Positions 21,324 to 28,970 of a stretch of 64,000 nt of DNA are shown here, in pieces. A model generated the notes under the pieces. The model was given only the letters and a program-made list of their open reading frames with translations. It did not search any database and had not been told where the DNA came from. The translations under genes were made by a program, and so were the position numbers. Positions within the stretch are counted from its first letter, which is position 1. The number at the start of each line of letters is the position of its first letter. The stretch is from Gemmatimonadota bacterium (GTDB lineage: Bacteria; Gemmatimonadota; Gemmatimonadetes; Longimicrobiales; Gaopeijiaceae): NCBI GenBank assembly GCA_021295815.1, contig JAGWBQ010000003.1, positions 1 through 64,000 on the forward strand, read 5' to 3'.

Positions 21324-23894
21324 TCAGGAGCAGTCAGAGTATCCGCAGATGTGGCAGGTCTTGCACCCCTCCACATAAGCCATCCGACCTGCCTTGCACT
21401 CCGGGCAGGTGCTGAGATCGAAGGCGGGACCGGCGCTGTCCCCGCCACCGGTGGCTGCGGTGGCGGTCGCGGTTTTCGATCCGCTCCACGCCGGAGCCTC
21501 GACCGTCAAGGGGAGCGACTCCTGCACGCCCTCTTTCTCGGCCAGGTAGGTGTCGATCGCCTGCCCCACGGCGTCCGGCACCGAAAGCACCTTGTTGGGA
21601 CCGAGCCCGACGGCGCGATCGCATGAGATGCCGCGCAACTGCTCCTTGACCTCGGTGAGGGGGATGCCCGACCGCAGAGCGAGAGACGCCAGCCGTCCGA
21701 CGGCCTCCGCGTCCGCCGTAGCGGCTCCGCCCGCCTTCCCGATCGTGCAGAAAACCTCGAACGGCCGACCCTCTTCGTCCTCGTTCACCGAGACGTAGAT
21801 GTCGCCCAGCGGGGAGTTCATCTTGACAGTGTAACCGTGGAGCACCTGAGGACGCACGCGCTTCCGGCGCCGCTTGCCGCGAGCCACGTCTTCCCTGGCG
21901 AGACGAGCCCGCAGAGCCTCGATCTCGATTTCCTTGTTGTGAAGTCGCTCTCGGGTGTCCGCGAGCGTGTTCTTAAGGGTTTCCCAAGCCTTCTCCTGAG
22001 CTGCGGCGGCATTCGCCGGCGGCTCCGCGTCGGCCTCCTTCTCGGACGGTTTCTTCGCCGCCGTCTCCGTCTTGCCGGTGCTCAGCACCTGAGCGTCCCG
22101 CGAGCCGTCCCTGTAGACCGTCACCCCCTTGCAGCCCAAGGAGTAAGCCAGGCTGTATATCTCGCGCACGTCCTTCTCGGCAGCCTCCCTGGGGAAGTTC
22201 GTGGTCTTCGAGATGGCCGAGTCGTTGTGCATCTGGAACGCCGCCTGCATGCGCACATGCCACTCCGGCGTGATGTCGTGCGCCGTGCGGAAGATTCTCT
22301 GCGTCTCCTCGGGGATCTCGTCGAAGTGAATGTGTCCCTCCTTGGCGACCCGGTCCATGAGCTCCTCCGTGAACCAGCCCTCGGCTTTGGCGCGAGCCAC
22401 GAAGTCGGGATTGACGTCGGGCATGAGCACGCCTGCCTGGTTGCGCATGAAGGCGACCGCGAAGAGCGGCTCGATGCCACCTGAACAGCCGGCGAAAATC
22501 GAAATGGTGCCGGTGGGCGCGATGGTGGTGAGGTTGCAGTTGCGCAGCCTGCGCTCGTCCCGGATGCGCCCGCCCGCCTGGTTGCGCGCGGCGTGGTCGT
22601 CGGGTCCCCAGACCGATTCCCGCCACGCGGGAAACACGCCTCTGCTCTCGGCCAGCTTCTCGGAAGAGACCCGGCTCTCCTCGTTCACGAACTCCATCAG
22701 CCGCTCGCCGAACGCCACTCCTTCCTCGGAATCGTAGGGAATGCCGAGACGCACGAGCATGTCGGCCCAGCCCATGACTCCGAGGCCGACCCGCCGGATC
22801 TCCTGGGAACGCTCGTGAATCTGAGGCAGCGGATAGCGGTTGGCGTCGATGACGTTGTCGAGGAATCTGATCGAGAGGTGCACGGTCCTCCTGAGGCCGT
22901 CCCAGTCCACCGTTCCGTCCTTGACGTAGGCGCCGACGTTGACGCTCCCCAAGTTGCATACGTCGTATGGGAGGAGAGGCTGCTCGCCGCACGGATTGGT
23001 CGCCTCGTAGCTGCCGAGAGCCGGCACCGGGTTGTGCTCATTGGCGCGGTCGATGAAGAAGGTGCCCGGCTCGCCGGTCCGCCAGGCGCTGTGCACGATC
23101 TCGTCGAAGATGGCGCGCGCCCGTTCCGTTCCGACGCAGGCACCCGTCGTCGGATCGACGAGCTCGTATTGCTCGTCCGCGGCCACCGCGGCCATGAACG
23201 CGTCGGTGATCGCCACCGAGATGTTGAAGTTCGTGATCTGCGAGGTGTCGTTCTTGCAGTTGATGAACTTGCGGATGTCGGGGTGATCCACGCGCAGGAT
23301 GCCCATGTTGGCGCCGCGGCGAGTGCCGCCCTGCTTGACCACGTCCGTGCTGGCGTCGTAGAGCCGCATGAAGGACACCGGCCCGGACGCGACGCCCATG
23401 GTGGAGCGCACCATCGAACCCTCTGGGCGCAGGCGAGAGAACGAGAATCCCGTCCCGCCACCCGACTGATGGACGAGCGCCATCGAGGTGAGCGTGTCGT
23501 AGATGCCGCCTTCGCCGGTGGAGAGCGCGTCGTCCACCGGGAGCACGAAACAGGCCGAGAGCTGGCCGAGAGGCCGGCCGGCGTTCATGAGCGTGGGCGA
23601 GTTGGGCTCGAAGGCTCCCGTGGTCATCAGACCGTAGAACTGCCGGGCCAGCTCCTCGACGGCGTCCGCGCTCGCTCCGTAGTCGGCGTCCACGTCGGCG
23701 ATCGTGCGGGCGATGCGCCAGAACATGGTCTCCGGTTCTTCCGTCGGTTCACCGTTCTCGTCCTTCTTGAGGTAGCGAAGAGCGAGCACGGTCCTGGCGT
23801 TTTCGTTGAAGCTCGCCTCAGGCAGGTCCGGCGGCGTCAGGTCGTTGAAGATCTCAATCTCTCTCGGGGGCCGGGGAGCGTGAGTCTTGATCAT
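21324..23894 (-). CDS. nrdJ: Vitamin B12-dependent (class II) ribonucleotide reductase
   Basis: Reduces ribonucleotides to deoxyribonucleotides with adenosylcobalamin. The 856-residue protein has the class II core: NSPTLMNAG, SACFVLPVDD, GGGTGFSFSRLRP, the active-site NPCGEQPLLPYDVCNLGS and NLTTIAPTGTIS. A charged linker, a TSCPD domain (about 690-780) and a C-terminal zinc-finger tail, CPECKAGRMAYVEGCKTC then CHICGYSDC, follow. These are typical of B12-type NrdJ. The ATG at 23894 has AGGAAG about nine bases upstream. Tandem NrdR boxes and a candidate promoter lie upstream. It is the only ribonucleotide reductase in the window. Confidence 0.97.
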   Translation of the reverse strand: MIKTHAPRPPREIEIFNDLTPPDLPEASFNENARTVLALRYLKKDENGEPTEEPETMFWRIARTIADVDADYGASADAVEELARQFYGLMTTGAFEPNSPTLMNAGRPLGQLSACFVLPVDDALSTGEGGIYDTLTSMALVHQSGGGTGFSFSRLRPEGSMVRSTMGVASGPVSFMRLYDASTDVVKQGGTRRGANMGILRVDHPDIRKFINCKNDTSQITNFNISVAITDAFMAAVAADEQYELVDPTTGACVGTERARAIFDEIVHSAWRTGEPGTFFIDRANEHNPVPALGSYEATNPCGEQPLLPYDVCNLGSVNVGAYVKDGTVDWDGLRRTVHLSIRFLDNVIDANRYPLPQIHERSQEIRRVGLGVMGWADMLVRLGIPYDSEEGVAFGERLMEFVNEESRVSSEKLAESRGVFPAWRESVWGPDDHAARNQAGGRIRDERRLRNCNLTTIAPTGTISIFAGCSGGIEPLFAVAFMRNQAGVLMPDVNPDFVARAKAEGWFTEELMDRVAKEGHIHFDEIPEETQRIFRTAHDITPEWHVRMQAAFQMHNDSAISKTTNFPREAAEKDVREIYSLAYSLGCKGVTVYRDGSRDAQVLSTGKTETAAKKPSEKEADAEPPANAAAAQEKAWETLKNTLADTRERLHNKEIEIEALRARLAREDVARGKRRRKRVRPQVLHGYTVKMNSPLGDIYVSVNEDEEGRPFEVFCTIGKAGGAATADAEAVGRLASLALRSGIPLTEVKEQLRGISCDRAVGLGPNKVLSVPDAVGQAIDTYLAEKEGVQESLPLTVEAPAWSGSKTATATAATGGGDSAGPAFDLSTCPECKAGRMAYVEGCKTCHICGYSDCS

Positions 23895-23905
23895 TCGGGC
23901 AGCTT

Positions 23906-23942
23906 CCTTTTTAAAAAGGTCGGGTCGGTGACGGATCACCGG
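23906..23942 (-). promoter_or_regulatory. nrdJ leader: palindrome over the ribosome-binding site, and hairpin
   Basis: A perfect 14-base palindrome CCTTTTTAAAAAGG (23906-23919) overlaps the AGGAAG ribosome-binding site of nrdJ. Next to it a stem CGGTGA/TCACCG with loop CGGA (23926-23941) can form in the leader transcript. Whether either affects translation is unknown. Confidence 0.5.
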
Positions 23943-23965
23943 GGTCGGCTTGGGATTGAAGAGGC

Positions 23966-23994
23966 AAGGTACTACATGTTGTAGGAAGGTGCAA
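23966..23994 (-). promoter_or_regulatory. Candidate nrdJ promoter
   Basis: On the minus strand TTGCAC (23994-23989, -35) and TACCTT (23971-23966, -10) are separated by exactly 17 bases. Transcription would begin near 23959 and give a leader of about 65 bases. The -10 is weak, but the NrdR boxes lie between and just upstream of the elements, which supports the call. Confidence 0.5.
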
Positions 23995-24015
23995 CCTGCA
24001 CACAACTTGTTGCGG
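23969..24015. promoter_or_regulatory. Tandem NrdR boxes upstream of nrdJ
   Basis: Two imperfect 16-base palindromes: GTACTACATGTTGTAG (23969-23984) and ACACAACTTGTTGCGG (24000-24015). Their 10-base cores CTACATGTTG and CAACTTGTTG match the NrdR core CWATATATWG at 8 and 7 positions, and core starts are 31 bases apart with a 15-base spacer. That is the spacing known for NrdR box pairs. NrdR represses ribonucleotide reductase genes in response to bound ATP/dATP. No nrdR gene is in the window. Confidence 0.78.
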
Positions 24016-24101: not shown

Positions 24102-27100
24102 TCAGAACGGCAGACCCAGACGCACGTACCAGACGGGTCGAGCGTCGTCCAGCGGGAACGCGACGCCGCCTCGCACCCGGAGGGGGAAGCGGAAGAAGGT
24201 GAGAAGGTCTGCGGTGGCCTCCACACCGGCGGAGGCCATGGGATCGGGTCGCGAACCTGCAGCCGAGCTCCCGGCCCAGGCGTCGCCGGCGTCGAAAAAG
24301 ACCGATCCGAAAAAGCGGTCGAGATGGGCGGGCCACGGTCCCAGTCCCCGGTTGACGAGCGCGAGCGGGAAACGGTACTCGAACGAGACGGACCAGGCCC
24401 GGTCGCCCCCCCGCTCCCCTGCCTGGTAGCCGCGAACCGGCAGAAAGATCGAACTGCCTCCGAAGAGCCCTAGCCCGGAGAGATTCTCCGGAGAACCGGA
24501 AGCCCCGCCCACGTCGAAATAGCCACCGTGAGCACCTGGGCCTCGGGCGGCCGCGGCGCTGACCCTGGCGGCGACCGCGTGTTGCCCGTATCCCGCGCGG
24601 AAGAGCGGAGCGTGGAGCACGAACCTGGAGAGCAGATCCTGTGCGCTGCGATCAAGACCGGAGCCCGCAAGCGTGTCAGGAAGCGAGAGCTCCCGACGAT
24701 CTCGGGCTCTGATGTAGAACGAAGCTCCCTTGTGCGGCCCCATGTGGAACTCGGTGGAGCGGACGCTGCTGAAGAAGAAGCTCGCGGAGTAATCGAAGAG
24801 GTCGGTTCGGGGTCGGGTCAACCGGTAGCGAGTCGCCGGCTCGAGCTCGGAGTCGAGCAGCGTGAAGTCGTCGCGCGCCACACCGGCATCCAAACTAACG
24901 GCGGCGTAACTGCGCGCTCGCCGACGAACGAAGGTCGCCGAAGCCGCAGCTCTGCGCTCGCGCTCCAGCACGTAGAGGATGTCCGGCTCCGCCCCGTCCC
25001 GCCCGCCCGCCAGGCGAGCGCCGTCGTCGTCCCAGGACTGCGATACCGAGAGCCCCAGCGCCGGATTCCCGAGACCGTGAAAGCTGTAGGCGAGTCCCGC
25101 TTCCAAATTGCCGTCGGGGATGAAGACGCGCGCGCTCAGCGAGTAGGAGTGGCGTCCCACCAGGTCCCGCCCCGAAGTCGTGAGGCCGAAGGCCCGTCCG
25201 AGCAGCTCGCGGCGCGGCACCTCGGCCGTCGGGGTGGAGACCGCCGAGGTCACCACCGGCGAGCGCGTCTGCGGCTCCCAGTAAGTGGGCGCTAGCGTGG
25301 AAAGGCTCGAGTAGGGCCTGGACTCCGCCTGGACTCCGCCCGCCCCGAGACCGGAGGCCTCGCGCTCGTCCGGGTCGGCGGCCCCGGCAGCCACGCTCCT
25401 CGCCGGCAATCCGTCGCGCTCGGATTCGTGCGGGGGGGACGTCGCGACCGGCACCGCCGGAGCCGCCGGGAAATCGAAGGGCGTTCGCTCGATTTCCCAG
25501 CCGTCGGCGTGATAGGCGGAGAAGTAGAGCCACTCGCCGGCCGGGTCGAGAGCGGGATAGCCGGCTGCGGTGAGCAGATTCGTGAGCAGCTTCGATTCGC
25601 TTGTCCGCTCGCCGGCCGCGTCCCACTCCACACCCAGGACGTTGAAGGTGCCCGTACGATCGGACATCCACACCAGATAACGCCCGTCGGCGCTCCAGCG
25701 GGGGGCCAGGTCGAGCGCTCGGTCGGCGGTGACCGCCGCCGCTTCCCTGCCCTCCGAATCGAGAATGACGATGTCGCTGCGGGCGCCCGCGCGCCAGCGC
25801 GTAGCCGCTATCCACCGGCCGTCGTGAGAGACCGCCGGGTAGGCCCAGTGCTCGTCGGGCGAGGCAGGCACCAGCTCGCGCACCGCTCCGGTCTCCAGAT
25901 CCACGTGGACGAGGGAGCGGGTTCCGGCTCCTTCCCGTATCGCCACCGCGTGTCCCGCAGGAGTGGCCGAGGGCTGAGAGAGACGCGCGCCTTCGGTCAG
26001 CCTGCGGGTTCGGCCCGATGGGATCGACGCCAGGTAGAGGTCTCCGTAGAAGCTGTAGGCGCCCTCGAAGTCTTGCTGCGCGAAGAGAAGATGCCCGGAA
26101 GGCATGGGCGCGACCGGCCCTGTGTCGTTCACCCTGAAGAGACGTTCGCCGCCTGGAGGACCTTCACCCGAAACTCCTTCGGGGCGCATCCGAGCGACCG
26201 CCGGATCGGAGCGGCCGTCGGCGAGCGCGTAGTAGAGCTCGAGGCCGTCAGCCGAGAACACCGGGTACAGCGCCCGCCTGGCTCCGCGGGTGACGGGCTC
26301 GGGAACGGAGAGCGGCCCAAGCTCGCGAGCCCTCCCTTCGAACTCCTCCGCATCCGCGCGCACCGACTCCTCCCAGTCGTGCCAAGCCTGGCTGAGCGTG
26401 ATGCCGAATCCGTGCTTCGCGGCCGCGTTCAGGCGGAAAGGGACCCACTGCCCCGCCACGGCCTGGGCGAATGCGGCCAAGCCTTCGTCGCCGTAACGAT
26501 CGTGCATGTACTCGAAGAACTGCGATCCGTAGACATAGGGGCGCTGGCCGCCGGGCCAGACCGGCGAGTCGCCCTGTGCCTGGCCCAGCCCTTCAAAGGC
26601 GCCCTCGATCACCGCGGTACGCAGCACCGTATTGTGGAAGGTGCCGTGGACCCGACCGGCCCCGGTGAGCGCCGATTCGTACCAGGTCGCGATGCCCTCG
26701 ATTCCCCAGCGCGGCAGTCCGGAGCCCGGGAAGAACGGCCAGGCCGCGCCCACCCGCCCGAAGACCGCCCGCGCCGCCTTGCCGACCGGGTTGGCGGTGC
26801 GGTCGATGTGGAAGACATGGGCGAGCTCGTGGACTATCACGAGTCGGAGCCAGTCGTCGTAGTAGCCCAGGGTGGGGAGATCGACCGGGGGGCGGGCGTA
26901 GATGGTGATCCGATTGGAAGGAACGTACTGGGCGAAACCGTTCGAGTAGTCGGTATGGTCGGTGAGCAATATGTCGACCGTGCCTTCGGGCGCGGGCAGG
27001 AAGGTCTCTCCCAGCCGGCTTCTGGCCTCTTCCGCGTAAGCTCCGGCGCGTTGGGCCAGCTCGTCCATCCCGGCCGGGAAGGTGACGCGAAAGTGTTCGG

Positions 27101-27236
27101 TCTCCAGGGTGCGCCACTCGATGTGGGGAGGAGGCGCCTGCGCGCTGGCGGGCTCGGCCCCGGGAGCGAAGGCCAGTCCGAACGCCAACAGTCCGGTGTG
27201 GACGCAACGTGGTGCTGCCGCGAGAGATCCGTGCAC
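24102..27236 (-). CDS. Metalloprotease-like / TolB-type propeller / outer-membrane barrel protein
   Basis: A 1044-residue exported protein with three parts. After a signal peptide (about 1-33) comes a gluzincin-like domain with HELAH at residues 136-140 and a candidate third zinc ligand Glu180 in WGIEGIATW. A TolB/PD40-type beta-propeller spans about 310-610, with repeats such as YPVFSADGLELYY, YPAVSHDGRWIAA and APRWSADGRYLVWMSDR. After a low-complexity linker (about 610-680), the C-terminal 350 residues look like a surface-antigen (Omp85-like) barrel ending WYVRLGLPF with a terminal aromatic. It would expose a protease and propeller on one face of the outer membrane. The stop of the upstream GT gene is seven bases away. 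Substrate unknown. Confidence 0.82.
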   Translation of the reverse strand: MHGSLAAAPRCVHTGLLAFGLAFAPGAEPASAQAPPPHIEWRTLETEHFRVTFPAGMDELAQRAGAYAEEARSRLGETFLPAPEGTVDILLTDHTDYSNGFAQYVPSNRITIYARPPVDLPTLGYYDDWLRLVIVHELAHVFHIDRTANPVGKAARAVFGRVGAAWPFFPGSGLPRWGIEGIATWYESALTGAGRVHGTFHNTVLRTAVIEGAFEGLGQAQGDSPVWPGGQRPYVYGSQFFEYMHDRYGDEGLAAFAQAVAGQWVPFRLNAAAKHGFGITLSQAWHDWEESVRADAEEFEGRARELGPLSVPEPVTRGARRALYPVFSADGLELYYALADGRSDPAVARMRPEGVSGEGPPGGERLFRVNDTGPVAPMPSGHLLFAQQDFEGAYSFYGDLYLASIPSGRTRRLTEGARLSQPSATPAGHAVAIREGAGTRSLVHVDLETGAVRELVPASPDEHWAYPAVSHDGRWIAATRWRAGARSDIVILDSEGREAAAVTADRALDLAPRWSADGRYLVWMSDRTGTFNVLGVEWDAAGERTSESKLLTNLLTAAGYPALDPAGEWLYFSAYHADGWEIERTPFDFPAAPAVPVATSPPHESERDGLPARSVAAGAADPDEREASGLGAGGVQAESRPYSSLSTLAPTYWEPQTRSPVVTSAVSTPTAEVPRRELLGRAFGLTTSGRDLVGRHSYSLSARVFIPDGNLEAGLAYSFHGLGNPALGLSVSQSWDDDGARLAGGRDGAEPDILYVLERERRAAASATFVRRRARSYAAVSLDAGVARDDFTLLDSELEPATRYRLTRPRTDLFDYSASFFFSSVRSTEFHMGPHKGASFYIRARDRRELSLPDTLAGSGLDRSAQDLLSRFVLHAPLFRAGYGQHAVAARVSAAAARGPGAHGGYFDVGGASGSPENLSGLGLFGGSSIFLPVRGYQAGERGGDRAWSVSFEYRFPLALVNRGLGPWPAHLDRFFGSVFFDAGDAWAGSSAAGSRPDPMASAGVEATADLLTFFRFPLRVRGGVAFPLDDARPVWYVRLGLPF

Positions 27237-27242
27237 GGGCCG

Positions 27243-28970
27243 TCAGGGTTCCGGAATCAGGCGCAAGACGTAGGTCGGAGCCGGCTCCGGGGTCTGGAAC
27301 AGCAGCTCGAACCGATTCAGGTGGGCCGCGATCGCCGTCCCCAGGTAGACGCTGGTGTTTTCCGAGGAGAGAATCACGTAATCGGTGGTCTCCACTTGGG
27401 CGAACACCGTCTCCGGGTCGTTGGAGAAAGGATAGACTACGCCGCTGCGACCGGTGTGCAGATGGAAGAGGCGAGGTTTTCTCACGGTGAAGACGGCATC
27501 TGCAGGGGTGTTGGCTTCGACCCAGTCCATCGCCTGGAAGAAGTTCACCCAGTGCGGTTGGTATCCCGCGTAGCTCTCACCCCCGAGGACCCGTCTGCCG
27601 GTCGCCAGGGTCCGAGGAGCCAGCACCGCCTGAGAAACGGTGCCCAGAGCGAAGAACGAGACGAAGACGGCCGTGGGCAGGCCCCGCTTCAGCCGGCGTC
27701 TGAGCCAGCCGATCCGTTCGCGCCCGGCCTCCATGGCGCCTGCCGCGTAGACGAAGATGATCGGCACGAGCGGCATGAGATAGCGAACGTCGTTCACCGT
27801 CTGGGCGAAGAGAAGAAGGGCTGCGGCGGTGAGAAGGAAGTACCCCTCGGTCGCCTGCGGTCGTCTCAACCGCAGCGCCAGTCCGACGACCGCGAGCGCC
27901 GCCAGCAGGAACGACGCCACGTCCATGATCCAGCTCGTATGCCAGGCAGGTATCGCCGCCAAAGTCCTCGGAATCTGCACGAACACGTAGTCGCTCAGGT
28001 TGTCGAAGATCCGGCCCACCCATCCGGCGAGGTCCAGGTAGCCCTCTTCCGGAGCGTAAACGTCGCGGAGTCGGAACTCCTCGAAATAGGGAGAGGATTC
28101 CCCGGTCACCCTGGAGGACGCCAGCAGCCAGGGCACCGTGACTGCGGCGCTCAAGCCTCCGTAGACCAGGAGCCTGCGCCAGCGACGGCCTGCCAGGTAA
28201 GAGAGCGCGACACCCGCGATCATGAGGGCGCCGATCTGTCGAGTGTAGAAACAAAGCGCGCCTCCGAGCAGGCCCAGCCAGAACCACCTGCCGAGTCGTT
28301 CTCCGCGATCGCGCTCCACGACCGCGAGGGTCGCCAGAGAGAGAAGCAGGAAAGCCGCCTCGGTCAGGATCCAGTGCGAGTACTCGATGACTATCGGGTT
28401 GACCGCGAAGGCCGCGCACATCGGGATCCAGACGCTGCGGCGGAAGCTTCCCCGGGTCCAGCGGCAGAAGAGGTAGACCGAGAGCGTCGTGGCGGCGAGC
28501 GAGAGAGCCTTGAAGGCGAGGACGCTCTGACCGAAGAGGAGCTGCACGAAGGCGAGCAGCGCGGGAAAGACGGGCGGGTACTTGGTGTGCGGAGTGGGCG
28601 GTCCCGGGTCGATGTTCGTGTGGTAGACGGCACCCTGCCCGTGGAAGGAGTCCGCCAGCAGCATGTACATGGCGTTGTCGCCGCCGGTATGCAGCTTGGG
28701 TTCGAAGACGGCCAGGGCTATCGCGACGTGTAGGCCGAGAAAGACGAGCATGGCCTGTGCGTCCGTCAGCCGTCCGTCGGTCGGCCCCGACGGCGTTCGT
28801 TCGGTCCTGCTCGCGCGATTTCCGGCGTTCCAACGGCCTCTCGCGGCCTTGCGGGAGGCCCGAGCCGCGTTCCTAGGGCTGCGGGCAGCCTTGCCGGAAT
28901 CGCGGGCCGCCCCGGCGGAGCTCCGTCCGTCCAGACTCCGTCGCTTCCGTCTCCCGCCCGAGCCCATCAC
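27243..28970 (-). CDS. GT-C type membrane glycosyltransferase (ArnT/PMT-like)
   Basis: An integral-membrane protein of 575 residues with about 10-12 hydrophobic segments between residues 74 and 430 and a soluble C-terminal part. TGGDNAMYMLLADSF after the first membrane segment, then KYPPVFPALLAF, resembles the acidic-motif first loop of GT-C enzymes such as ArnT and glycosyltransferase family 39, which use polyprenyl-phosphate sugars. The first about 70 residues are a basic Ala/Arg/Ser/Gly tract with repeated KAAR/NAAR units. The start is GTG at 28970 overlapping murQ by four bases; the adjacent ATG at 28967 is an alternative. Acceptor unknown. Confidence 0.82.
   Translation of the reverse strand: MMGSGGRRKRRSLDGRSSAGAARDSGKAARSPRNAARASRKAARGRWNAGNRASRTERTPSGPTDGRLTDAQAMLVFLGLHVAIALAVFEPKLHTGGDNAMYMLLADSFHGQGAVYHTNIDPGPPTPHTKYPPVFPALLAFVQLLFGQSVLAFKALSLAATTLSVYLFCRWTRGSFRRSVWIPMCAAFAVNPIVIEYSHWILTEAAFLLLSLATLAVVERDRGERLGRWFWLGLLGGALCFYTRQIGALMIAGVALSYLAGRRWRRLLVYGGLSAAVTVPWLLASSRVTGESSPYFEEFRLRDVYAPEEGYLDLAGWVGRIFDNLSDYVFVQIPRTLAAIPAWHTSWIMDVASFLLAALAVVGLALRLRRPQATEGYFLLTAAALLLFAQTVNDVRYLMPLVPIIFVYAAGAMEAGRERIGWLRRRLKRGLPTAVFVSFFALGTVSQAVLAPRTLATGRRVLGGESYAGYQPHWVNFFQAMDWVEANTPADAVFTVRKPRLFHLHTGRSGVVYPFSNDPETVFAQVETTDYVILSSENTSVYLGTAIAAHLNRFELLFQTPEPAPTYVLRLIPEP

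Follow-up and report, generated by a model that had tools for sequence, protein, structure and literature searches.

A single-chain combination of a predicted gluzincin peptidase, a TolB-like propeller and an Omp85-type barrel in Gemmatimonadota

Domain architecture

The window that we analysed, a stretch of 64,000 nucleotides from a Gemmatimonadota genome of 2.47 Mb in 35 contigs, encodes a protein of 1044 residues that comprises, from N- to C-terminus, a signal peptide, a metallopeptidase domain of the gluzincin type, a TolB-like PD40 propeller and an Omp85-type barrel. Judging from conserved residues and structural models, we see an even chance that this protein is a zinc metallopeptidase which is anchored in the outer membrane, faces the periplasm and perhaps serves the quality control of envelope proteins. 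The combination of propeller and Omp85 barrel has been known since 2014, but the presence of a gluzincin domain on such proteins appears to be new.

The gene is located on the minus strand, with a GTG start at 27236 and the stop codon at 24102-24104, while the plus strand of 24102-27236 is interrupted by stops. The reading frame is supported by strong homologues in the same taxonomic order. The signal peptide is of the ordinary type, ending in ASAQA and lacking a lipobox cysteine; we delimited it from the sequence, from the low confidence of the model at the N-terminus (residues 1-32) and from an AQ-PPDE border common to the homologues. The features of the gene and its direct neighbours are as follows:

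24102..27236, minus strand: whole gene, 1044 residues, GTG start
27135..27236, minus strand: signal peptide, residues 1-34
26301..27131, minus strand: gluzincin-type metallopeptidase domain, residues 36-312
26817..26831, minus strand: HELAH, predicted zinc-binding motif, residues 136-140
26697..26699, minus strand: E180, predicted third metal ligand (EGIAT)
26535..26537, minus strand: Y234, predicted catalytic tyrosine (PYVYG)
25437..26294, minus strand: TolB-like PD40 propeller, residues 315-600
25317..25433, minus strand: poorly conserved linker, residues 602-640
24105..25316, minus strand: Omp85-type barrel, residues 641-1044
24426..24437, minus strand: VRGY, residues 934-937, in the equivalent of loop L6
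24276..24299, minus strand: FFDAGDAW, residues 980-987, Omp85-type strand motif
24105..24107, minus strand: C-terminal phenylalanine of the beta-signal-like end WYVRLGLPF
27243..28970, minus strand: upstream neighbour, GT-C type glycosyltransferase (GT87/PMT_2)
21324..24005, minus strand: downstream neighbour, vitamin B12-dependent ribonucleotide reductase NrdJ

A reading of this DNA made from the sequence only had proposed that an HExxH domain with a downstream glutamate, a PD40 propeller and a C-terminal barrel occur in one chain, and AlphaFold2, Foldseek, Pfam/NCBIfam searches and conservation all agree with this. The AlphaFold2 model of the full chain is confident (pLDDT 87.6, pTM 0.88) and homologues with 24-61% identity, drawn from three phyla, show little or no variation at the motif residues, which argues that the three-part architecture is more than a product of chance.

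Distribution and relatives

A scan of contigs with the single sequence yielded only five loci, the near matches coming from two Gemmatimonadota MAGs and others from an Acidobacteria MAG and a Candidatus Aerophobetes MAG. We therefore turned to profile searches of whole genomes, in which a peptidase-domain profile served to score the distribution across phyla. Within the order, matches at E<=1e-100, mainly full-length ones, are present in 50 of 58 genomes, including the source genome itself. In Gemmatimonadota as a whole, the peptidase-domain profile matched 110 of 121 genomes at 1e-10, with values below 1e-59 in about 70; the 11 genomes without a relative at E<=1e-10 indicate that the protein is not essential throughout the phylum. 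At 1e-3, the profile matched 92 of 149 genomes in the phylum of the Acidobacteria MAG and, at 1e-5, 13 of 17 in that of the Aerophobetes MAG, with one copy each and most open frames near 950 residues. The latter genomes are small (0.9-2.4 Mb), and retention of a single copy in them suggests a basic role in the envelope. Together with the near-universal occurrence in Gemmatimonadota and the common occurrence in Acidobacteriota, this implies that the protein probably does something basic. No plasmid-borne relatives were found, and PHROGs gave no match.

All of the 20 acidobacterial frames that we checked have the HExxH domain and most have the propeller, with an Omp85-like C-terminus in about half. 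Some of the acidobacterial relatives (L110, L111 and L113-L119) keep the peptidase domain and end in a region that the Omp85 barrel model does not match, from which we infer that the type of barrel may be exchangeable. Most members of the series L110-L119 end in this way, and a swap to another barrel type is possible.

The source genome encodes a second three-part protein (L152, C18:37300-41300) of 1061 residues, which matches Peptidase_MA_2 at E=0.00017, PD40 at E=5.4e-29 and Omp85 over the cut-off; its spacing from HExxH to EGMA differs from that of the window protein. A further single open frame of 1017 residues (L153), on contig C3 at about 94.8-97.9 kb and thus outside the window, joins a calcineurin-like phosphoesterase (PF00149) to POTRA and an Omp85 barrel, with a signal-peptide-like stretch in between; it resembles the 'Metallo' Omp85 subfamily known from the literature, or else two genes in one frame.

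The peptidase domain

The peptidase domain has the highest conservation of the three parts (0.62, compared to 0.58 for the propeller and 0.51 for the barrel). Its residues H136, E137, H140, E180 and Y234 are invariant in all 33 aligned sequences, which argues against a dead enzyme. E180 lies within GIEGIATWYES, 39 residues after the second histidine of the HELAH motif.

Modelled alone with AlphaFold2, the domain has a pLDDT of 88.6, and its best Foldseek matches in the PDB were M1 aminopeptidases, LTA4 hydrolase (LTA4H) and the peptidase domains of clostridial collagenases (E 3.5e-5 to 4e-4, TM about 0.4-0.55 by query length). In hhalign comparisons with M1 proteins from related genomes (95.5% probability, E 1.6e-8), HELAH was aligned to HELAH, E180 to the third-ligand glutamate and Y234 to the tyrosine of the Y-x-K-G motif. 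The Peptidase_MA_2 family (PF13485) matched 15 of 33 homologues at E<=0.1, with a best value of 1.6e-10, and the window protein scored E=0.02, below the Pfam cut-off. Searches of PDB sequences with the profile of the domain alone gave weak matches, the best relevant one being 3cia (E=0.13).

By its conserved residues and modelled fold, the domain is a gluzincin of peptidase clan MA. The earlier proposal of a HELAH gluzincin domain with a downstream glutamate has held, in the form of a complete conserved residue set and a matching predicted fold, which bear indirectly on the metal-binding geometry of the site, and the conservation of these residues makes the domain probably a zinc-dependent protease. 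Membership in the M1 aminopeptidases was considered and rejected: even though the fold and the catalytic residues agree, no GxMEN motif was found in the domain and the spacing from histidine to glutamate is 39 residues rather than 18. These two differences place it as a gluzincin near Peptidase_MA_2.

The propeller and the barrel

The assignment of the middle third as a TolB-like propeller, also made from the sequence beforehand, is confirmed by several matches: to PD40 in Pfam (PF07676, E=2.3e-10), to the TolB family in NCBIfam (TIGR02800, E=3.4e-14), to TolB in a profile search of PDB sequences (E=2.5e-28) and again to TolB as the first-ranking Foldseek match of the full model (E=3e-9). It is followed by a linker of about 40 residues, which is modelled with low confidence (pLDDT <50 for residues 602-633) and has a mean column conservation of 0.35. 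A Pfam scan of the window protein reported no POTRA domains.

In the AlphaFold2 model, the C-terminal third forms 15 clear strands and a broken first strand near residues 654-662, on whose account the count of sixteen is given here as probable. VRGY, which is kept in nearly all homologues, sits in a long loop with five strands after it, the arrangement known from Omp85, and FFDAGDAW is found in the second of these five. The terminal residue is phenylalanine in all 32 aligned barrels. With Foldseek, this third matched BamA of Deinococcus radiodurans (8xnb) with E=2.9e-8 and a TM-score of 0.62 by target length, and further matches were E. coli BamA, TamA, FhaC and a chain of the mitochondrial SAM complex. 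Pfam Omp85 (PF01103) scored the window protein below its cut-off (E=0.0036) and matched 27 of 34 aligned sequences, the best at 2e-14. An hhalign comparison of the barrel profile with the genome's own BamA gave 81.8%, with RGY and FFDAGN.W aligned; the strand motif of that BamA reads FFDAGNVW. Structure prediction, which was to decide whether the C-terminus is a barrel at all, returned one, and the notion of an Omp85-like barrel with a beta-signal-like terminal aromatic stands.

Omp85 proteins form the core of outer-membrane assembly, and since VRGY is kept in L6, the barrel could itself still assemble or translocate proteins. One might go further and regard it as a working insertase or translocase, with the propeller as a built-in BamB and a peptidase that mainly processes or clears clients. 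The retained VRGY and FxDAGxxW motifs fit this idea, as does the WD40-Omp85 subfamily of Heinz and Lithgow (2014), which has a TolB-like propeller before the Omp85 barrel and for which a likeness to a BamA-BamB fusion was proposed (PMC4104836). We nevertheless hold such a function to be rather unlikely as the principal one: Pfam reports no POTRA family, conservation is weaker in the barrel than in the peptidase domain, and the acidobacterial relatives with a peptidase domain and an unmatched C-terminus suggest that the barrel is perhaps the exchangeable part. The same genome encodes a separate BamA with five POTRA domains (L154), so that the window protein would not be the main insertase. Orthology to BamA was likewise rejected, given L154 and the POTRA-containing Omp85 protein L153.

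Topology and proposed mechanism

Omp85 proteins have their N-terminus in the periplasm. In the window protein, the five strands after L6 place the C-terminus there, and the N-terminus as well, provided that the strand at 654-662 exists. Conservation is higher in turns of the putative periplasmic side (0.615) than in putative outer loops (0.477), the sides having been assigned from the same model. In PlpD, the best-studied fusion of an enzyme to Omp85, the enzyme domain stays in the periplasm (PMC11116518). On the topology of the modelled barrel and the precedent of PlpD, we infer that the peptidase and the propeller are periplasmic, and export of either across the outer membrane need not be invoked.

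For the preferred reading, a periplasm-facing peptidase at the outer membrane, we propose the following mechanism. The protein would be exported by Sec and lose its signal peptide, after which the separate BAM machinery of the genome would insert the barrel into the outer membrane with both termini in the periplasm. Just below the barrel, the TolB/BamB-like propeller may act as a docking or gating platform. H136, H140 and E180 are predicted to bind zinc, E137 to serve as the general base and Y234 to assist, such that the gluzincin domain would cleave polypeptide chains on the inner side of the outer membrane. Its predicted location suggests the substrates and the role: the most likely task would be turnover or maturation of envelope proteins, in a quality control resembling that of BepA.

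The same protein could be pictured as a surface-displayed protease of type Vd, whose barrel brings the peptidase and the propeller to the cell exterior, where external protein would be digested for nutrition. Its layout of enzyme plus Omp85 resembles the original proposal for PlpD, and an external peptidase would be a plausible tool for scavenging. The enzyme domain of PlpD was later located in the periplasm, however (PMC11116518), a barrel of 16 strands would leave little room for the passage of the folded propeller that separates it from the peptidase, and L6 and the strand count in the model put the N-terminus in the periplasm; taken together, topology and precedent make display improbable. 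Of the earlier suggestion that protease and propeller need no separate secretion partner, being anchored in the outer membrane, the barrel anchor is consequently retained, whereas display on the cell surface, if that was meant, is disfavoured.

Gene neighbourhood

The glycosyltransferase ends a few bases before the peptidase gene. In 20 related neighbourhoods, NrdJ adjoined the gene downstream in 17, and upstream lay MurQ in 16 and a GT-C glycosyltransferase in about 14; other genes of the conserved block are a nitrilase-like hydrolase, an aminotransferase and a DksA-like gene. This synteny is a mark of orthology and vertical descent and points to no pathway; MurQ, the glycosyltransferase and NrdJ look like conserved housekeeping neighbours and give no pointer to protein quality control. 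A role in envelope peptide or cell-wall maintenance, in which the peptidase would trim peptides tied to peptidoglycan recycling or glycan modification instead of proteins, could appeal to the muropeptide-recycling etherase MurQ, to the GT-C glycosyltransferase and to the TolB-like propeller, as TolB works with Pal, yet it is the least probable of the explanations, because synteny is weak evidence where the block also holds unrelated housekeeping genes (NrdJ, the nitrilase-like hydrolase, the aminotransferase, the DksA-like gene).

In several related genomes, the glycosyltransferase and the peptidase gene are separated by a small gene in the opposite orientation, which encodes about 230 residues with the motif W(F/Y)RLGYALE...LLYGS (for instance L056 7129-8013 and L058 7081-7989). 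The window lacks it, and the two flanking genes nearly touch there. At L061 (G025:C2:503978-523013), the block of MurQ, glycosyltransferase and peptidase is tandemly duplicated, and the extra peptidase copy matches just part of the N-terminal domain.

Comparison with known systems

The envelope biology of the phyla concerned is, to our knowledge, almost unstudied, and a widespread Omp85 branch with its own metallopeptidase and TolB-like propeller appears to be undescribed. We found no paper on the combination of gluzincin, propeller and Omp85 barrel or on its function, in a literature with few subscription journals, which makes this weak evidence of absence. The protein offers a concrete case for asking whether some bacteria have built an outer-membrane anchor, a substrate dock and a protease into a single polypeptide. 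A more far-reaching and rather unlikely generalization would see in it a class of quality-control or maturation machines at the outer membrane, conserved across three phyla or more, whose peptidase, docking propeller and Omp85 barrel jointly do the work of the separate BepA, BamB and BamA-like barrel of E. coli.

The closest known layout is that of the WD40-Omp85 proteins, in which, as in the window protein, a propeller directly precedes the Omp85 barrel and POTRA domains are missing (PMC4104836). The word 'peptidase' does not occur in the main text of that paper, and its passages on these proteins mention neither Gemmatimonadota nor an HExxH domain such as that of the window protein; its 'Metallo' Omp85 group is defined by a different domain, PF00149. 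PlpD and other patatin-Omp85 proteins likewise have an enzyme domain, probably periplasmic, N-terminal to the barrel, but PlpD combines a patatin lipase with POTRA where the window protein has a gluzincin and a propeller. With Peptidase_MA_2 and M1 proteins it shares HExxH, the downstream glutamate in an EG[IL]A helix, the downstream tyrosine and an M1-like catalytic fold; in addition to the spacing and the missing GxMEN, it differs from them as a membrane-anchored chain of three domains. TolB has the propeller in common with it, in fold and sequence, and is a soluble protein without peptidase or barrel. As a functional analogue we propose the M48 peptidase BepA of E. coli, a periplasmic zinc metallopeptidase which, according to PMC8423444, works on LptD at the BAM complex. 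Both would be zinc peptidases working at an Omp85 protein; BepA, however, is a separate protein of another peptidase family, and the likeness is one of analogy, with no homology claimed.
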